NCBI GenBank assembly: GCA_023487445.1
Contig: JAMDBQ010000010.1
Span: 1 to 64,000, forward strand
Direction: 5' to 3'
DNA length: 64,000 nt
Origin: Candidatus Martarchaeota archaeon
GTDB taxonomy: Archaea; Thermoproteota; Thermoprotei_A; Marsarchaeales; Marsarchaeaceae
Part shown: piece by piece, positions 21,168-27,038 of the stretch
Numbering within the stretch: position 1 is the stretch's first letter
Layout of the letters: each line of letters opens with the position of its first letter
Made by a program: the position numbers and the translations under genes
The notes under the pieces: model-generated
Database searches by the model: none
Told to the model about the DNA's origin: nothing
What the model saw: the letters and a program-made list of their open reading frames with translations, nothing else

Positions 21168-21797
21168 CTACCGGTTTCCGTAAAATATTACCTTGTATGA
21201 ATATACGGGACAAAAACCATAGACAAACTGCAGTGTACAATCATATGCCGACACGCTAACAGATATGGTGGCGTTCGAGCGAAACATCTGTGTGCTAACG
21301 TTACTTAAATCGAACTCAACTAACGTTTTGTTGATCAAAGTTTGCATATTTGTTGTGCAGTTACACGCATAGAACGCCAGTGCCTCATGCACAGCGACTT
21401 CCAGTGAAGCATATCTTATGGGAACAACTACCTCAGTCACCGTATAGAAAGCCAAATCAGAATATGAGGCAACTTGTTTTAGTATGTAGGAAGGATAGAA
21501 CGCTTGACTTATGGTATATGATTCGCCAAATGTACGAATCTGTACTACGGTATCCAACTGCTGGTGATTGAAGATTACAGTAGCGTTTGAAGCAAGAAGA
21601 TTTGAGATGTTGGTCATCAGCCGTGAAAAAAATGTTGAATTGATCACGTGATTACTCGCGATGAGGCTGCTCTCAACCGTACTATATACTCGCCATTCCT
21701 CATAATCTCTTATCGCTTCTACTACCGTGCCAATGCCCGGCATAAACTGACGCTCCGACGTGCGAATTTGCTCGAAGGCGCCTAGCTCCGCAAGCAA
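21168..21797 (-). CDS. Secreted/pilin-like protein; true N-terminus probably upstream (RRNGFGLTITTLVLLLVLLA to ~21858)
   Basis: Open frame upstream encodes an R-R-N-G plus hydrophobic stretch like a class III signal peptide; start codon unclear; minus operon of small secretory proteins. Confidence 0.55.
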   Translation of the reverse strand: MLAELGAFEQIRTSERQFMPGIGTVVEAIRDYEEWRVYSTVESSLIASNHVINSTFFSRLMTNISNLLASNATVIFNHQQLDTVVQIRTFGESYTISQAFYPSYILKQVASYSDLAFYTVTEVVVPIRYASLEVAVHEALAFYACNCTTNMQTLINKTLVEFDLSNVSTQMFRSNATISVSVSAYDCTLQFVYGFCPVYSYKVIFYGNR

Positions 21798-21846
21798 AAC
21801 TAGTAGGAGAACGAGTGTCGTTATCGTAAGTCCAAATCCATTGCGC

Positions 21847-22098
21847 CTAGTAGGTCACCGTCATGTTTTCAAGCGTTAAAGAGACGTTGTAGCCGACGCG
21901 GGCGAGGCCAATCGCTAACTTCGCACCGCACGCTAGTGGTTCACAGCTCGCGAACACCAAGCCTAGGTTATCATTTGCCCGTTCGGTAGATAATACCTCA
22001 GAGTAGACCACCTTATAGTTGGCGCCTATTGCTATTGAACAAGCAAGTATTCCACCTACAAGTAAAAGGGTCAAAATCAGGTCAAGGTAAACAATCAT
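21847..22098 (-). CDS. Small pilin-like / single-TM secreted protein
   Basis: MIVYLDLILTLLLVGGILACSIAIGANYK...; ATGA overlap with the upstream ORF. Confidence 0.55.
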   Translation of the reverse strand: MIVYLDLILTLLLVGGILACSIAIGANYKVVYSEVLSTERANDNLGLVFASCEPLACGAKLAIGLARVGYNVSLTLENMTVTY

Positions 22099-22256
22099 GG
22101 TATCACGGGCCTCCAGTTTTGTGAACCACTCAGCATTTTGAGAATACCCAGAAGTTCCCGTGTCGACGTAAGAATGGTATTCATGGAGGCGATGGTAATG
22201 GCGACTACGATTACGATTCCTATACCTGCTGCTAGAAATTCTAGTAATGTCGACAT
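22095..22256 (-). CDS. Small single-TM pilin-like protein (53 aa), absent from ORF track
   Basis: Hand translation MSTLLEFLAAGIGIVIVVAITIASMNTILTSTRELLGILKMLSGSQNWRPVIP*. Confidence 0.55.
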   Translation of the reverse strand: MSTLLEFLAAGIGIVIVVAITIASMNTILTSTRELLGILKMLSGSQNWRPVIP

Positions 22257-22645
22257 GGATCTCCGCCCCTGAAAAGGACCACGCCGTCCCCCATCTGAGT
22301 CAGCATTATAGATCCATTCATAATGTGACTCTCGGAAAGATTGAATGGAAAAGTTACACTCACGTTTGTTCCGTTATCGTTAAGCGATAACACATGACCG
22401 TGAGCATAGATGTCCTTTACCCAGTTGGGTAGTGCAACACAGGCAGTGATGTTATGAGCATCCACGTATTCCACGGCGTCGTAGAGGTTTTTAAGAGAGG
22501 TTAATAGGACAATCCGGTTAGATTCTAAGAGTAAACTGGCCAAAGGAACCAAAAAGTGAACCACTATGAGCGCACACGATACTAATACAAGCACAATGGA
22601 TGACACTTCAGAAATTAGCTCCGAAGGCACGGAGGATAGTTTCAT
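22241..22645 (-). CDS. Pilin-like protein
   Basis: MKLSSVPSELISEVSSIVLVLVSCALIVVHFLVPLASLLL: short polar N-terminus then hydrophobic helix; divergent from the secretion ATPase. Confidence 0.5.
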   Translation of the reverse strand: MKLSSVPSELISEVSSIVLVLVSCALIVVHFLVPLASLLLESNRIVLLTSLKNLYDAVEYVDAHNITACVALPNWVKDIYAHGHVLSLNDNGTNVSVTFPFNLSESHIMNGSIMLTQMGDGVVLFRGGDPCRHY

Positions 22646-22689
22646 TTGATGATTATAGACCAACTGGAAGGGGTATTGGTGCTAACGGG

Positions 22690-24120
22690 GTGGAGGCTTT
22701 CGGTTGTTCAAACAGTTACGTAATATTTGGTGAAGATGAACACCTCCTGCACAGCCTAGCAGCCGAATCAGAAGATGTAACCCTTGTTACCTCGTCAGCG
22801 GTCATCGCATTCGCTGGAGGTAAACTGTGGCGCATAGAGTTCATGTCGGGTATACGCATGGAGGAGTATACTATCGGTCCAGTTTCAGTGGAAATATGTG
22901 GGGAGCCTTGGCCCAGTTACTCGTGGAGAATGGACCATGACCTAGGGCTAGTGAATAAGGTGTGCCAGGATATATACAAACTTAGGCTCAAACTAGAGGG
23001 AAACGGAAATATTTTTGACGAGGTGTATTCAACCTGTCGGGAAGAAGCTCGCAGAAGACTGATCCACCTTGGATGCGAGCGTTGGCTCGATCTCTCTTCC
23101 GAAATTTGTACTTTGTCGGTTCTTGGCTTAACCCCGCTTGTATCTGCATTGATCGATCCTTTAGTGGAAGAAGTCTACCTTGACAGCCCAGGGGCGCTGT
23201 GTTACCTTGACCATGCGACCTACGGAAGGCTATGGTATCCCGCGATAGCTCTTCCCACCACGGTGCACCGACTTGGCTTGCTCGTTCAGCTTTCAACGAT
23301 GAACACATTCAACATGTCGTCCAATTCATTGAAGGGCCATCTTATGTCGGGTAATTTTCACTGTAGAGTAAGTGTAGATAGTTATCCATTATCAGTAGAT
23401 GGCGGAAGCTGTGTGATAAGAAAGTTCAATTTCAAGAAACTCGACCTCAATGAGCTACTGAGTAGGCAGACGCTAACCGTTGAATGCGCGGCACTCATGA
23501 TAGGCTGCCTTGTCTCAGGTCATTCGGTGATAATTAGTGGGTTGCCTCGTTCAGGAAAGACGACGCTGTGCAACGCCCTAATGCGTTATCTTCCTCGGGA
23601 ATGGAGGAAGCTGAGTATCGAAGAGGCAGTTGAAACAAGTGTTCCGACTCCTATTTCAAGGTTCGTCAGACTTACCACAGAGTCTGGTAAGACCACAGAC
23701 AAGCTTACGGAGATTACTAAGAGTCTTCATAGATCACCTGACTTCGTGTTCGTGGGTGAACTCCAAAACAAGGAACAGACCATTGCCGCTTCAATGCTTA
23801 TTGACGTAGGGATTCCAAGCCTGCAAACCGTTCACGCGACCGATATCGATGGCTTGGTCGCCAGATGGAGGGATATATACGGATTTCAGATAGCTGAACT
23901 CAATAAAATAATCCTGGTGGTATTCATTGTTCTTGGCCCAAGCGGTAGAAAGGTCAGCAAAATCGTTGCTATACGCAGACAAAGCGGTGCGACTAGCGTT
24001 GAACCACTCTTCAATAATGGCCGCTTGTCTATGGAAAGTGTGGACAAGTTTGGTTTGACACCATCGTTTAAGGCTGGGATGGCCCTTCTTAGCGAAAAGG
24101 CTGCGGCACAAGAGATCTGA
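22690..24120 (+). CDS. Type II/IV secretion (FlaI/PilT/TadA-like) ATPase
   Basis: VIISGLPRSGKTTLCNAL Walker A; PDFVFVGELQNKEQTIAASMLIDVGIPSLQTVHATD; start uncertain. Confidence 0.82.
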   Translation: MEAFGCSNSYVIFGEDEHLLHSLAAESEDVTLVTSSAVIAFAGGKLWRIEFMSGIRMEEYTIGPVSVEICGEPWPSYSWRMDHDLGLVNKVCQDIYKLRLKLEGNGNIFDEVYSTCREEARRRLIHLGCERWLDLSSEICTLSVLGLTPLVSALIDPLVEEVYLDSPGALCYLDHATYGRLWYPAIALPTTVHRLGLLVQLSTMNTFNMSSNSLKGHLMSGNFHCRVSVDSYPLSVDGGSCVIRKFNFKKLDLNELLSRQTLTVECAALMIGCLVSGHSVIISGLPRSGKTTLCNALMRYLPREWRKLSIEEAVETSVPTPISRFVRLTTESGKTTDKLTEITKSLHRSPDFVFVGELQNKEQTIAASMLIDVGIPSLQTVHATDIDGLVARWRDIYGFQIAELNKIILVVFIVLGPSGRKVSKIVAIRRQSGATSVEPLFNNGRLSMESVDKFGLTPSFKAGMALLSEKAAAQEI

Positions 24121-24211
24121 GGCCGGTACGTTACTTGTACTACCTCTCACGGTAGTCACGCTGAGATTCAACGTCATAGCCGCGGTCCTACTCCTAACAG
24201 TTTCGACGATT

Positions 24212-25303
24212 GTGTGGGGAACAAATGACGAGTCCCTTTTCAGAGATGCAATGCGCCAAGTGCTCCATTCTGCGCTGGTTCAAGCTGGAATCAGCGAGGT
24301 CTCTGCTACATCTATTGCAAGGGGGTGGTTCGACCCCGATTACACCCGCGCCCACCGGCTGAAGAGACGGGACTTTGTGCTTGCAAACTCACTTACCTCC
24401 AATTCAAAGGAATTTATCCTTGAAAACATAGTACCGCTGGTTGGAGGGTTTTCGAGCATAGGCCTCCTAAGTTCGTATGTTGTGACTGGTCTTTTCGAAG
24501 GTAGCCGAGGCCTGAGTACAATTCTCTCCCTAATTTGTATGGCATCGTACGTTTGTTCAATGTACACGTCGAAAAAGGTAGGCAAGTTCAGAAAGCCTAT
24601 AATGATTGAACTCGCCGGTATCGCCCTCCTAGTCGTAAGTCAAGCTGGCTTGGGCCGATCAATTCAGGAAGCCATTATCGCTTTAGGATTGATCCTGCTT
24701 TTCTACTTTGTAAAAGTGAGCGAAACCGTCAGGCTGCGAACTAAAAGTGAGCGAAAAGTAGTTGATTCAATAGTCGATTCTTTGATAGGAGACCCGTCGG
24801 GCACAGCTCAAAGAGTAGTACGAAGTTTATCTGGGCGTGGTTTGACTGTCGGGCAGATGGTGTCGGGGAAGGGGTTACCAGGGCTAATCGGGCTGATGAC
24901 CAAGACGTGCTCAACTCCCGATTTAACCGAACTTATCCATACCGTGGTCACAGCGTTGGCTGTACTCGGAGAGAGAGAAGAGTGGGTGAAGGCAATAAGC
25001 ATCATAAAGGGGGCTTCGGAAAGAACAACTGCCCACCTGTTTCAGTTGTTCTCGAAGGCTGAAATGCAGGTGAGTATAATGTTTGGCGTCGCGGCCTTCG
25101 GAGCAAGTGTTCTAGGCGGTGTCTTGCTTCCGGGCGCTAGGGTCCCGTCTTATGGCAGTACGGGTCTTAGCCCAGTTGTGGCTATTAACTGCTGCTTCAT
25201 CTTCTCCTCATATCTTTACAGGTCGTCGGCTAGATATTATGTTTTGGCGTTGATGCTTACGACGATCGAAGTTCTTCCAAGAGTCAATCACCTAGCTATT
25301 TAG
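24212..25303 (+). CDS. Multi-TM pilus platform-like protein (T2SF/TadC/FlaJ-like); N-terminus probably extends upstream
   Basis: Several TM segments; between secretion ATPase and prepilin; upstream in-frame hydrophobic segment GTLLVLPLTVVTLRFNVIAAVLLLTVSTIVW. Confidence 0.55.
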   Translation: MWGTNDESLFRDAMRQVLHSALVQAGISEVSATSIARGWFDPDYTRAHRLKRRDFVLANSLTSNSKEFILENIVPLVGGFSSIGLLSSYVVTGLFEGSRGLSTILSLICMASYVCSMYTSKKVGKFRKPIMIELAGIALLVVSQAGLGRSIQEAIIALGLILLFYFVKVSETVRLRTKSERKVVDSIVDSLIGDPSGTAQRVVRSLSGRGLTVGQMVSGKGLPGLIGLMTKTCSTPDLTELIHTVVTALAVLGEREEWVKAISIIKGASERTTAHLFQLFSKAEMQVSIMFGVAAFGASVLGGVLLPGARVPSYGSTGLSPVVAINCCFIFSSYLYRSSARYYVLALMLTTIEVLPRVNHLAI

Positions 25304-25335
25304 ACCTTAAAGTACCGTCTGACAGGGATAATTCT

Positions 25336-25575
25336 TTGTCGTTAACCAAAATTCTCCTCAAAAGGAGGCGCGGCTCGCCTCTGCTTGAAGAGGGATTGCT
25401 CGTTGGGTTAGCCCTGGTGCTGTTCGCTGTGCTGGTCTCATCTATAATGGGGGTGTTCGGATATCTGCAGGGAGCTGCTCATCCATTGAGCAGCCTAGGA
25501 AGTGGGCTGTCAACGTTGTTCAATAACGTGTTGCAAGGGTACACCAGGATCTTCAAGTATTTGACTGGGCAGTAG
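25336..25575 (+). CDS. Prepilin with class III signal peptide
   Basis: KRRRGSPLLEEGLLVGLALVLFAVLVSSIMGVFGY. Confidence 0.7.
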   Translation: MSLTKILLKRRRGSPLLEEGLLVGLALVLFAVLVSSIMGVFGYLQGAAHPLSSLGSGLSTLFNNVLQGYTRIFKYLTGQ

Positions 25576-25577
25576 GA

Positions 25578-27038
25578 TTGACTCCCAAACTAGGTTTCAC
25601 TCAATCTAATGTTGTCATTGCTAAGGATGGGGTTCGGTGGTTTTGCCTAGCGTTGGCACGGGTTTCGCTGCAAACTACAGATGAAAAATCTTCACGGATC
25701 GACGATGCTATCGATCACTTTGCTTTGGAACTAAAGGGATGCGCGAGCAATGTGGCGCTCGTGCTCTTGAATAAGAAAACCTTCATGGCACGTCCGGAGA
25801 TGTGCGCGTACATCACGTTGTTTGGCTGGGGATTTCAGAAACGGCAACTTGTGGCCAAGATAAAGGCTGAGCTTGAAAGGATACGTATGCTGGGTATTTC
25901 AACGGGTGTAGTCCTGGATAACAGCCCACAGACACGCTTCGAGGACTGGAAGACGCTTTGGAGAGTTCTTGCAAAAGCTGTCGACCTTCCAAGATTCGAC
26001 GAGGTGGACGCGGTAGGGGGAATAAGCATAGGTAGAGGCCCATCGAAAATACAGTTAACCGACCAAGAGCTGTTTAAACATTGCGCGGTAGTTGGTGAAA
26101 CGGGGTCGGGAAAATCAACTTTCGTCGCTGAAATTGCCAAAGAATGGTCTGGTCAAGCAAGGCATTTTCTTGTGTTTGATTGGCACGGGGAATATTCAAA
26201 GCTCATTCGGGACAACTCCATACTTATAATCGAGCCAGATAACGGCCTAGGGTTCGACGTCTTCGCCTATCCCCAAGGGGTTGATCCCTACATACATATA
26301 GATACGTTGATGGACATCTTCTCGGAAAGCTTTGACTTGAGCGTATCTCAGCAGTACGTGCTTAGATCTTCATTAAGAAAATTATATACGGAAAAGGGTC
26401 ACGGAATCAAGATGAGGCCCGAGAGAGTTACGATTAGTGAGCTTATAAAATACATCAATGAGGCGCGTACATTTAGTGGATGGGAGCAAGAAGCAAAACT
26501 TGCTTTGGTTAGAAGGGTGAGCAAACTGGGGGATACCGGCCTCGGTGGTATGCTTAACGCTGAACACAGTCTAGGATTGGATGAGGTACTTAACGAAAAT
26601 GTCTTGGTGGACCTTGGAAAGATACCCGATCACTATTCCAAGCTGTTCGTGGTTGAGGCCATGTTAAGGCTTCTATATGACTACAAGGTTTCTAGAAAAC
26701 TTGCTCTGCCGCATATGACAGTAGTGGAGGAGGCTAGGAATGTCGTGCCGTACAGAAGACCTGAAGAAAAGCCGAGGATTGCCGAACGGATAATCGAGGA
26801 ATTGAGGAAGTTTGGTGAATCAATGATAATAGTCACTCAGCTGCCTTCAACCGTGTCGTCCGAGGTGCTTACTGCTGCTGGCACAATCTTCGCTTTTAGA
26901 CTTAAGGGTGAAGCAGAATATGAAATACTTTCTCGCAGATGTAATCTTTCTGCTAGCTTTTGCAGGCAGCTTGCAATGCTTCGTACAGGCGTGTGTGTAT
27001 GCAGGCGTAGTGATAACACCGTTTCAGTCATCGGCTAA
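25578..27038 (+). CDS. HerA/VirB4-like (DUF87) ATPase
   Basis: HCAVVGETGSGKSTFVAEIAKEW, FLVFDWHGEYSKLI, TVVEEARNVVP, MIIVTQLPSTVSSEVL motifs. Confidence 0.87.
   Translation: MTPKLGFTQSNVVIAKDGVRWFCLALARVSLQTTDEKSSRIDDAIDHFALELKGCASNVALVLLNKKTFMARPEMCAYITLFGWGFQKRQLVAKIKAELERIRMLGISTGVVLDNSPQTRFEDWKTLWRVLAKAVDLPRFDEVDAVGGISIGRGPSKIQLTDQELFKHCAVVGETGSGKSTFVAEIAKEWSGQARHFLVFDWHGEYSKLIRDNSILIIEPDNGLGFDVFAYPQGVDPYIHIDTLMDIFSESFDLSVSQQYVLRSSLRKLYTEKGHGIKMRPERVTISELIKYINEARTFSGWEQEAKLALVRRVSKLGDTGLGGMLNAEHSLGLDEVLNENVLVDLGKIPDHYSKLFVVEAMLRLLYDYKVSRKLALPHMTVVEEARNVVPYRRPEEKPRIAERIIEELRKFGESMIIVTQLPSTVSSEVLTAAGTIFAFRLKGEAEYEILSRRCNLSASFCRQLAMLRTGVCVCRRSDNTVSVIG

Follow-up and report, generated by a model that had tools for sequence, protein, structure and literature searches.

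What would an archaeon do with a pilus assembly ATPase, a short pilin and a second ATPase of the FtsK/HerA superfamily, all encoded in one compact locus? The question is raised by positions 21168-27038 of a 64,000-nucleotide stretch of DNA (the window) from contig JAMDBQ010000010.1 of a Candidatus Martarchaeota archaeon, where the initial annotation suspected a combined pilus and DNA-pumping machine or a new secretion system. Judging from its genes, we consider it reasonably probable that the locus encodes an undescribed machine, in which a small type IV/Tad-like pilus is served by a dedicated CedD-type DNA translocase that probably takes DNA in. The core operon is also found across Thermoproteota, and the window locus therefore represents, in Marsarchaeota, a system that spans the phylum and is apparently undescribed. 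What appears new is the pilus operon with a CedD-type ATPase; its parts belong to known superfamilies. The open-licence literature on CedD (PMC11868833), on Ced and Ted pili (PMC9905601) and on archaeal type IV pili (PMC4858521, PMC6668835) describes, in its available portions, no CedD-type ATPase in a type IV pilus operon.

The identity of the second ATPase is central to this reading. Its gene (25578-27038, plus strand; 486 amino acids, Walker A GETGSGKS, VVEEARN motif) had been called HerA/VirB4-like. It is indeed a DUF87/HerA-type gene (PF01935, 5.6e-19), but profile and tree comparisons classify it as CedD-like, neither HerA nor CedB. Against curated families, the protein matches CedD (NF053655) at 5.5e-36, HerA at 1.6e-16 and CedB at 1.1e-6, and hhalign gives 1.8e-42 for CedD, 4e-23 for CedB and 2e-23 for HerA, in the ATPase domain only. 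Phylogenetically, the Marsarchaeal ATPases nest among those of the phylum-wide operons (100/99); crenarchaeal CedD joins this operon clade (97/83), HerA and CedB fall elsewhere, and the HerA clade (99/96) excludes the window protein. Long branches, present here and in the tree of secretion ATPases, call for caution on the inner order. The motor motifs and catalytic columns do not vary within the family. An alignment of 23 operon ATPases has 37 columns conserved in 90% or more of the proteins, and these include GxTGxGK, DWHxEY and the EEA motif. Assignments as a NurA-linked HerA or as CedB were rejected by the tree and profile comparisons. A plasmid origin was also rejected, as tblastn searches against plasmids returned distant DUF87 proteins only, none covering 80% of the query. 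PADLOC gave generic HerA matches only.

The structure model of this ATPase (predicted local distance difference test score, pLDDT, 66) has VirB4 as its Foldseek top match; HerA structures match too, so the model is non-discriminating. The VirB4 match bears on an alternative in which the locus is a reduced type IV secretion system (T4SS) or conjugation-type machine that exports DNA or protein, with the secretion ATPase as VirB11, the CedD-like ATPase as VirB4 and the small pilin as VirB2. Such systems likewise pair a VirB11-type with a VirB4-type ATPase.

The secretion ATPase, here called E, is present where it had been annotated (22690-24120, plus strand; GTG start, 476 amino acids, Walker A GLPRSGKTT), with a match to PF00437 at 2.9e-13. 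It resembles the FlaI/TadA-like pilus assembly ATPases: its best NCBIfam match is FlaI (9.9e-24; VirB11, 5.9e-13), and its profile compared with the PDB gives 1.5e-20 for FlaI, 2e-13 for CpaF and 3.7e-7 for VirB11, which makes it FlaI-type, not VirB11-type. In a tree with 25 further archaeal pilus ATPases, including those from the other pilus and archaellum loci of Marsarchaeota, the operon E ATPases form their own clade, Marsarchaeal proteins included (Shimodaira-Hasegawa approximate likelihood ratio test, SH-aLRT, 100). The gene of the predicted major prepilin was also found (25336-25575, plus strand). It has 79 amino acids, a class III-type signal (RRRG|SPLLEEGLL) with Glu+5, one hydrophobic transmembrane (TM) stretch and a predicted mature length of 66 amino acids. 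Glu+5 from a class III-like site is found in 22/22 aligned pilins, with Gly/Ala at -1, preceded by Lys/Arg, in 20/22 and predicted mature lengths of 55-68 amino acids. The six family pilins have no match to the Pfam Flp/Fap model PF04964 at E<=10, and pilin searches of the PDB and Pfam gave no useful match. A PibD/FlaK-type prepilin peptidase (PF06847, above cut-off) is encoded in the window genome (G000) and in G001-G005. Given an E profile nearer to FlaI and CpaF than to VirB11, a pilin with a class III/Glu+5 start and one TM stretch, whereas VirB2 and CedA1 have two, and a locus of only eight genes with housekeeping genes on its flanks, we judge the reduced T4SS to be improbable.

The remaining plus-strand gene, F (24212-25303), had been annotated as a platform-like multi-TM protein. 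The multi-TM protein is there, and its topology and operon position are kept in 6/6 family genomes, but no significant family or profile match was found for it in Marsarchaeota. For the window protein there was no Pfam match, hhalign to archaeal platforms gave 1.7%, and a Foldseek search with a model of pLDDT 49 was without outcome. Its role as a probable diverged single-gene pilus platform is therefore based on position and topology. In place of F, the phylum operons encode two small membrane proteins, of which F1 weakly matches the first (73%) and F2 the second (59%) T2SSF domain of archaeal platforms.

Divergent from this set are four small minus-strand genes, here called p1-p4, all of which were found at or near their annotated positions. 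The longest, p1 (21168-21797), is listed as an open reading frame (ORF) of 209 amino acids and has homologs of 236-265 amino acids with an N-terminal K/R-G/A followed by a TM stretch. Next to it are p2 (21847-22098; 83 amino acids, an N-terminal TM stretch, MIVYLDLIL, and a small domain with a conserved Cys pair) and p3 (22095-22256; 53 amino acids, one TM stretch starting MSTLLEF with an acidic residue early in the helix, present in 6/6), and then p4, a minor-pilin-like protein of ~134 amino acids with an N-terminal TM stretch and no family match (22241-22645). The 44-bp intergenic region between both gene sets (22646-22689) is the expected promoter region. The description of the small proteins as pilin-like holds for their N-terminal-TM architecture only: Pfam and NCBIfam scans gave no pilin, CedA or VirB2 family match, and no search aimed at CedA or CedA1 was made. 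In families f61 and f65, too, the pilin gene has single-TM small genes next to it (L183 9408-14751, with F and E; L189 9423-11279); they recall p1-p4 only in size and topology.

Four adjoining genes of secreted type could also suggest a protein-secretion system built from type IV pilus parts, in which the CedD-like ATPase would help to move protein substrates. The type II secretion system (T2SS) and Tad relatives do secrete proteins. We rate this explanation as very unlikely, as no conserved effector-like partner was noted and the closest ATPase family acts on DNA (available part of PMC11868833).

All eight genes occur in identical order in 6/6 genomes of the family, which represent four genera, and for this reason the locus is not a chance assembly. 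Identity to the window is highest in the pilin (66-73%), followed by the DUF87 ATPase (45-50%) and E (43-45%); it is 20-27% in F and ~20-37% in p1-p4. The spacing between the pilin and DUF87 genes is 1-9 nucleotides in all six genomes. In both genomes of one genus the right-hand peroxiredoxin neighbour is not beside the locus, and the eight-gene unit is intact there. A six-member pilin profile gave no comparable match among the remaining 223 genomes of the class (best, 20 bits).

To look beyond the class, we searched a sample of 398 Thermoproteota genomes with the ATPase family profile. Relatives from outside the class (up to 202 bits, 3.7e-60) score above the non-family members of the class, and 17/20 outside-class loci have the core order E, F1, F2 (or one F), short pilin, CedD-like ATPase. 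Among the others, L164 lacks E because the locus begins at a contig end, L152 has the pilin and ATPase with no nearby E, and L168 has the ATPase alone. A pilin profile hits the small ORF immediately upstream of the ATPase gene in 19/20 phylum loci, and as this profile was built solely from Marsarchaeal pilins, the detection is independent. When a strong ATPase match and a match to a broader pilin profile were both required, 42 genomes were counted: in 38, from 14 families, the pilin gene immediately precedes the ATPase gene on the same strand, and the remaining four have their matches on different contigs. In most phylum loci a convergent P-loop kinase gene comes after the ATPase, often together with a thermosome gene. 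The pilin-ATPase pair is kept in at least three genomic contexts: HMGR/peroxiredoxin in the window, thermosome/kinase in most others and tRNA-ribosyltransferase-type in L152. In two families, an XPD/DinG-type DNA helicase gene lies directly downstream of the CedD-like gene on the same strand (L182 10812-12602; L180 11518-13308), a supporting hint for a DNA pump. The initial annotation had taken both ATPase types and the pilin for one unit and had staked this on the HerA gene staying beside pilus genes in relatives; adjacency and order are kept in the family and across the phylum.

These results bear directly on the idea that the HerA-like gene is a chance neighbour, held in place by conserved synteny without function. 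The flanking HMGR and peroxiredoxin genes are partly conserved as well, which would fit. The tight same-strand spacing in every family genome, and a pilin gene immediately ahead of the ATPase gene in 38/42 genomes and several contexts, largely refute this idea, leaving it a minimal probability, and chance adjacency of the two genes was rejected on conserved order, spacing and phylum-wide recurrence.

The TM protein of L174 was rejected as a platform because it is an M48 peptidase, and the proximity of CedD and E in L059 and L060 was not counted, as they are ~9 kb apart with unrelated genes between. In family f25, stand-alone pilin relatives lie amid unrelated, mostly tetrapyrrole-biosynthesis genes (L176 9829-10023, L177 9737-9937, L185 9210-9431), and in three other f25 genomes related pilin matches contain stop codons, as if degenerating.

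How does the operon relate to the Ced system? Sulfolobales and their relatives have CedD without pilus neighbours, often beside a thermosome gene and in several genomes beside the same kinase type. According to the available portion of PMC11868833, S. islandicus (Saccharolobus) depends on CedD for importing DNA but not for exporting it. Read most simply, CedD and the operon ATPase form a single family, and most crenarchaea have lost the pilus genes. The opposite history, in which pilus genes were gained beside a CedD-type ATPase, may also apply, because the ATPase tree is unrooted. We give slightly less than an even chance to a Thermoproteota ancestor with a one-operon DNA-uptake machine, combining a short Tad-like pilus with a CedD-type translocase, of which crenarchaeal CedD in the Ced system would be the surviving pump after pilus-gene loss.

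Several points weigh against a pilus that imports DNA. The evidence for it comes from genes, namely their composition, conservation, order and motifs, the CedD kinship and the peptidase. The CedD score of the window ATPase is 124 bits, compared with a curated equivalog cut-off of 600, and covers residues 151-474 only; its lineage-specific N-terminal domain (residues 1-145) matches neither CedD, CedB nor HerA in hhalign comparisons. The platform identity of Marsarchaeal F, with no significant profile match, is weak. In a search run with positive controls, ComEC is absent from 22/22 genomes tested. For CedB, no match reaches the 700-bit cut-off in the family genomes or in 16 operon-bearing relatives; in Marsarchaeota its profile finds only the CedD-like gene itself or, in G001, a 40-residue fragment. 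With both absent, these searches identified no membrane channel; CedA was not searched for. Finally, E-F1-F2-pilin operons without a CedD-like gene are found in L178, L179, L186 and L188 (families f36 and f43), and hence the pilus part is able to exist without it.

This last observation also favours the main rival explanation, that the CedD-like ATPase serves as a further motor of the pilus, for retraction or subunit handling, or as a regulator, and that the pilus serves adhesion or motility and moves no DNA. Archaeal pili lack PilT-type ATPases (available text of PMC4858521), so an extra motor could help. On the other side, relatives in the FtsK/HerA superfamily are mainly nucleic-acid pumps, CedD acts in DNA import (PMC11868833, in its available part), and since crenarchaea retain CedD without pilus genes, a CedD-type ATPase can work without this pilus. 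A second motor therefore seems to us unlikely, if less so than the other alternatives. We regard the four operons as natural losses, useful for separating the pilus and pump functions.

The proposed mechanism and ALTERNATIVES would be those of a pilus carrying its own DNA pump, with a probably inward direction. The PibD/FlaK-type peptidase of the genome would cut the 79-amino-acid prepilin. Driven by the FlaI-like ATPase, the pilin would polymerise into a thin pilus on the multi-TM platform, and p1-p4 would be minor or tip pilins. The pilus would bring DNA to the membrane, where a CedD-like ring on the cytoplasmic face may pump it inward for recombination.

The source, a hot-spring archaeon, belongs to Marsarchaeota, order Tardisphaerales; Candidatus Marsarchaeota G1 BE_D and G2 ECH_B_1 are among its nearest relatives. 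The placement of the lineage in this order is given in PMC12542729, and the NCBI taxonomy holds the order. The 73.5-kb contig that contains the window belongs to a 603-kb genome, 71% complete. Two genes of the locus have unusual starts: for p1, the TM stretch RRNGFGLTITTLVLLLVLLAELG is readable in frame upstream to ~21841 with no canonical start, and for F, a hydrophobic N-terminus is in frame upstream to ~24095 without ATG, GTG or TTG. Unlike the window genes, both have ordinary starts in the five relatives; an assembly error, a lost start or a rare start codon may account for this.

Marsarchaeota also have an archaellum-like locus and other type IV pilus loci, with no HerA-type genes beside them (L138 2547-8733, L140, L141). 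In other crenarchaea, a different FtsK/HerA-type ATPase of 633-661 amino acids adjoins type IV pilus genes (L062 5815-11510, L063 5699-14044, L064 4923-16632), together with a protein of 91-115 amino acids that has a PEPPPGI(S/G)EA motif and a hydrophobic C-terminus. This arrangement is possibly another combination of DNA transfer and pilus, and a homolog of its ATPase occurs in Marsarchaeota G1 (L134 2927-5071).

A pilus operon with a CedD-type pump, found in many Thermoproteota, offers a concrete candidate for how DNA passes the archaeal membrane, and it suggests an origin for CedD of the Ced system. Archaea lack ComEC, and the membrane transporter of competent archaea is unknown (PMC10133366). 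Cultured Marsarchaeota (Tardisphaera miroshnichenkoae and T. saccharovorans) exist and have a single pilus-like appendage of 10-12 nm (PMC12542729).

Among known systems, natural transformation in Methanococcus resembles the proposed one in that DNA uptake there needs archaeal type IV-like pili and ComEC is absent; its transporter is unknown, with a TctA-like candidate, and no CedD-like gene is reported (PMC10133366). The Tad/Epd-type archaeal pili (PMC6668835, available part) share the FlaI/TadA-like ATPase and a short Glu+5 pilin (55-68 amino acids when mature), and their TadB/TadC pattern is matched by the two small, putative platform genes of most other phylum members, whereas no TadZ/FlaH-type ATPase was noted among the neighbouring genes here. 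The available portions of PMC6668835 and PMC4858521 make no mention of an in-operon CedD-like ATPase for pilus loci. In the Ted system of Thermoproteales, the pilin and an FtsK/HerA-superfamily ATPase are likewise encoded close together, but TedC is a signal-peptidase-I VirB2-like pilin that acts with the TedA channel and TedB/VirB4, and no FlaI-type component is described in the available text of PMC9905601. The Ups pilus and Ced of Sulfolobales are comparable in function, a type IV pilus and a DNA importer acting together; there the loci are separate, the Ups pilins and ATPase are of other families, and CedA1 forms a T4SS-like pilus (PMC9905601, in part). Crenarchaeal CedD itself has no adjoining pilus genes and works with CedB and CedA, whereas here CedB is absent and the ATPase lies in a pilus operon and carries another N-terminal domain. 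The ATPase domain is nonetheless homologous to that of CedD from the Ced system of Sulfolobales (PMC11868833, in its available portion), the two group as sisters, and CedD often has the same thermosome and kinase neighbours as the phylum operons.

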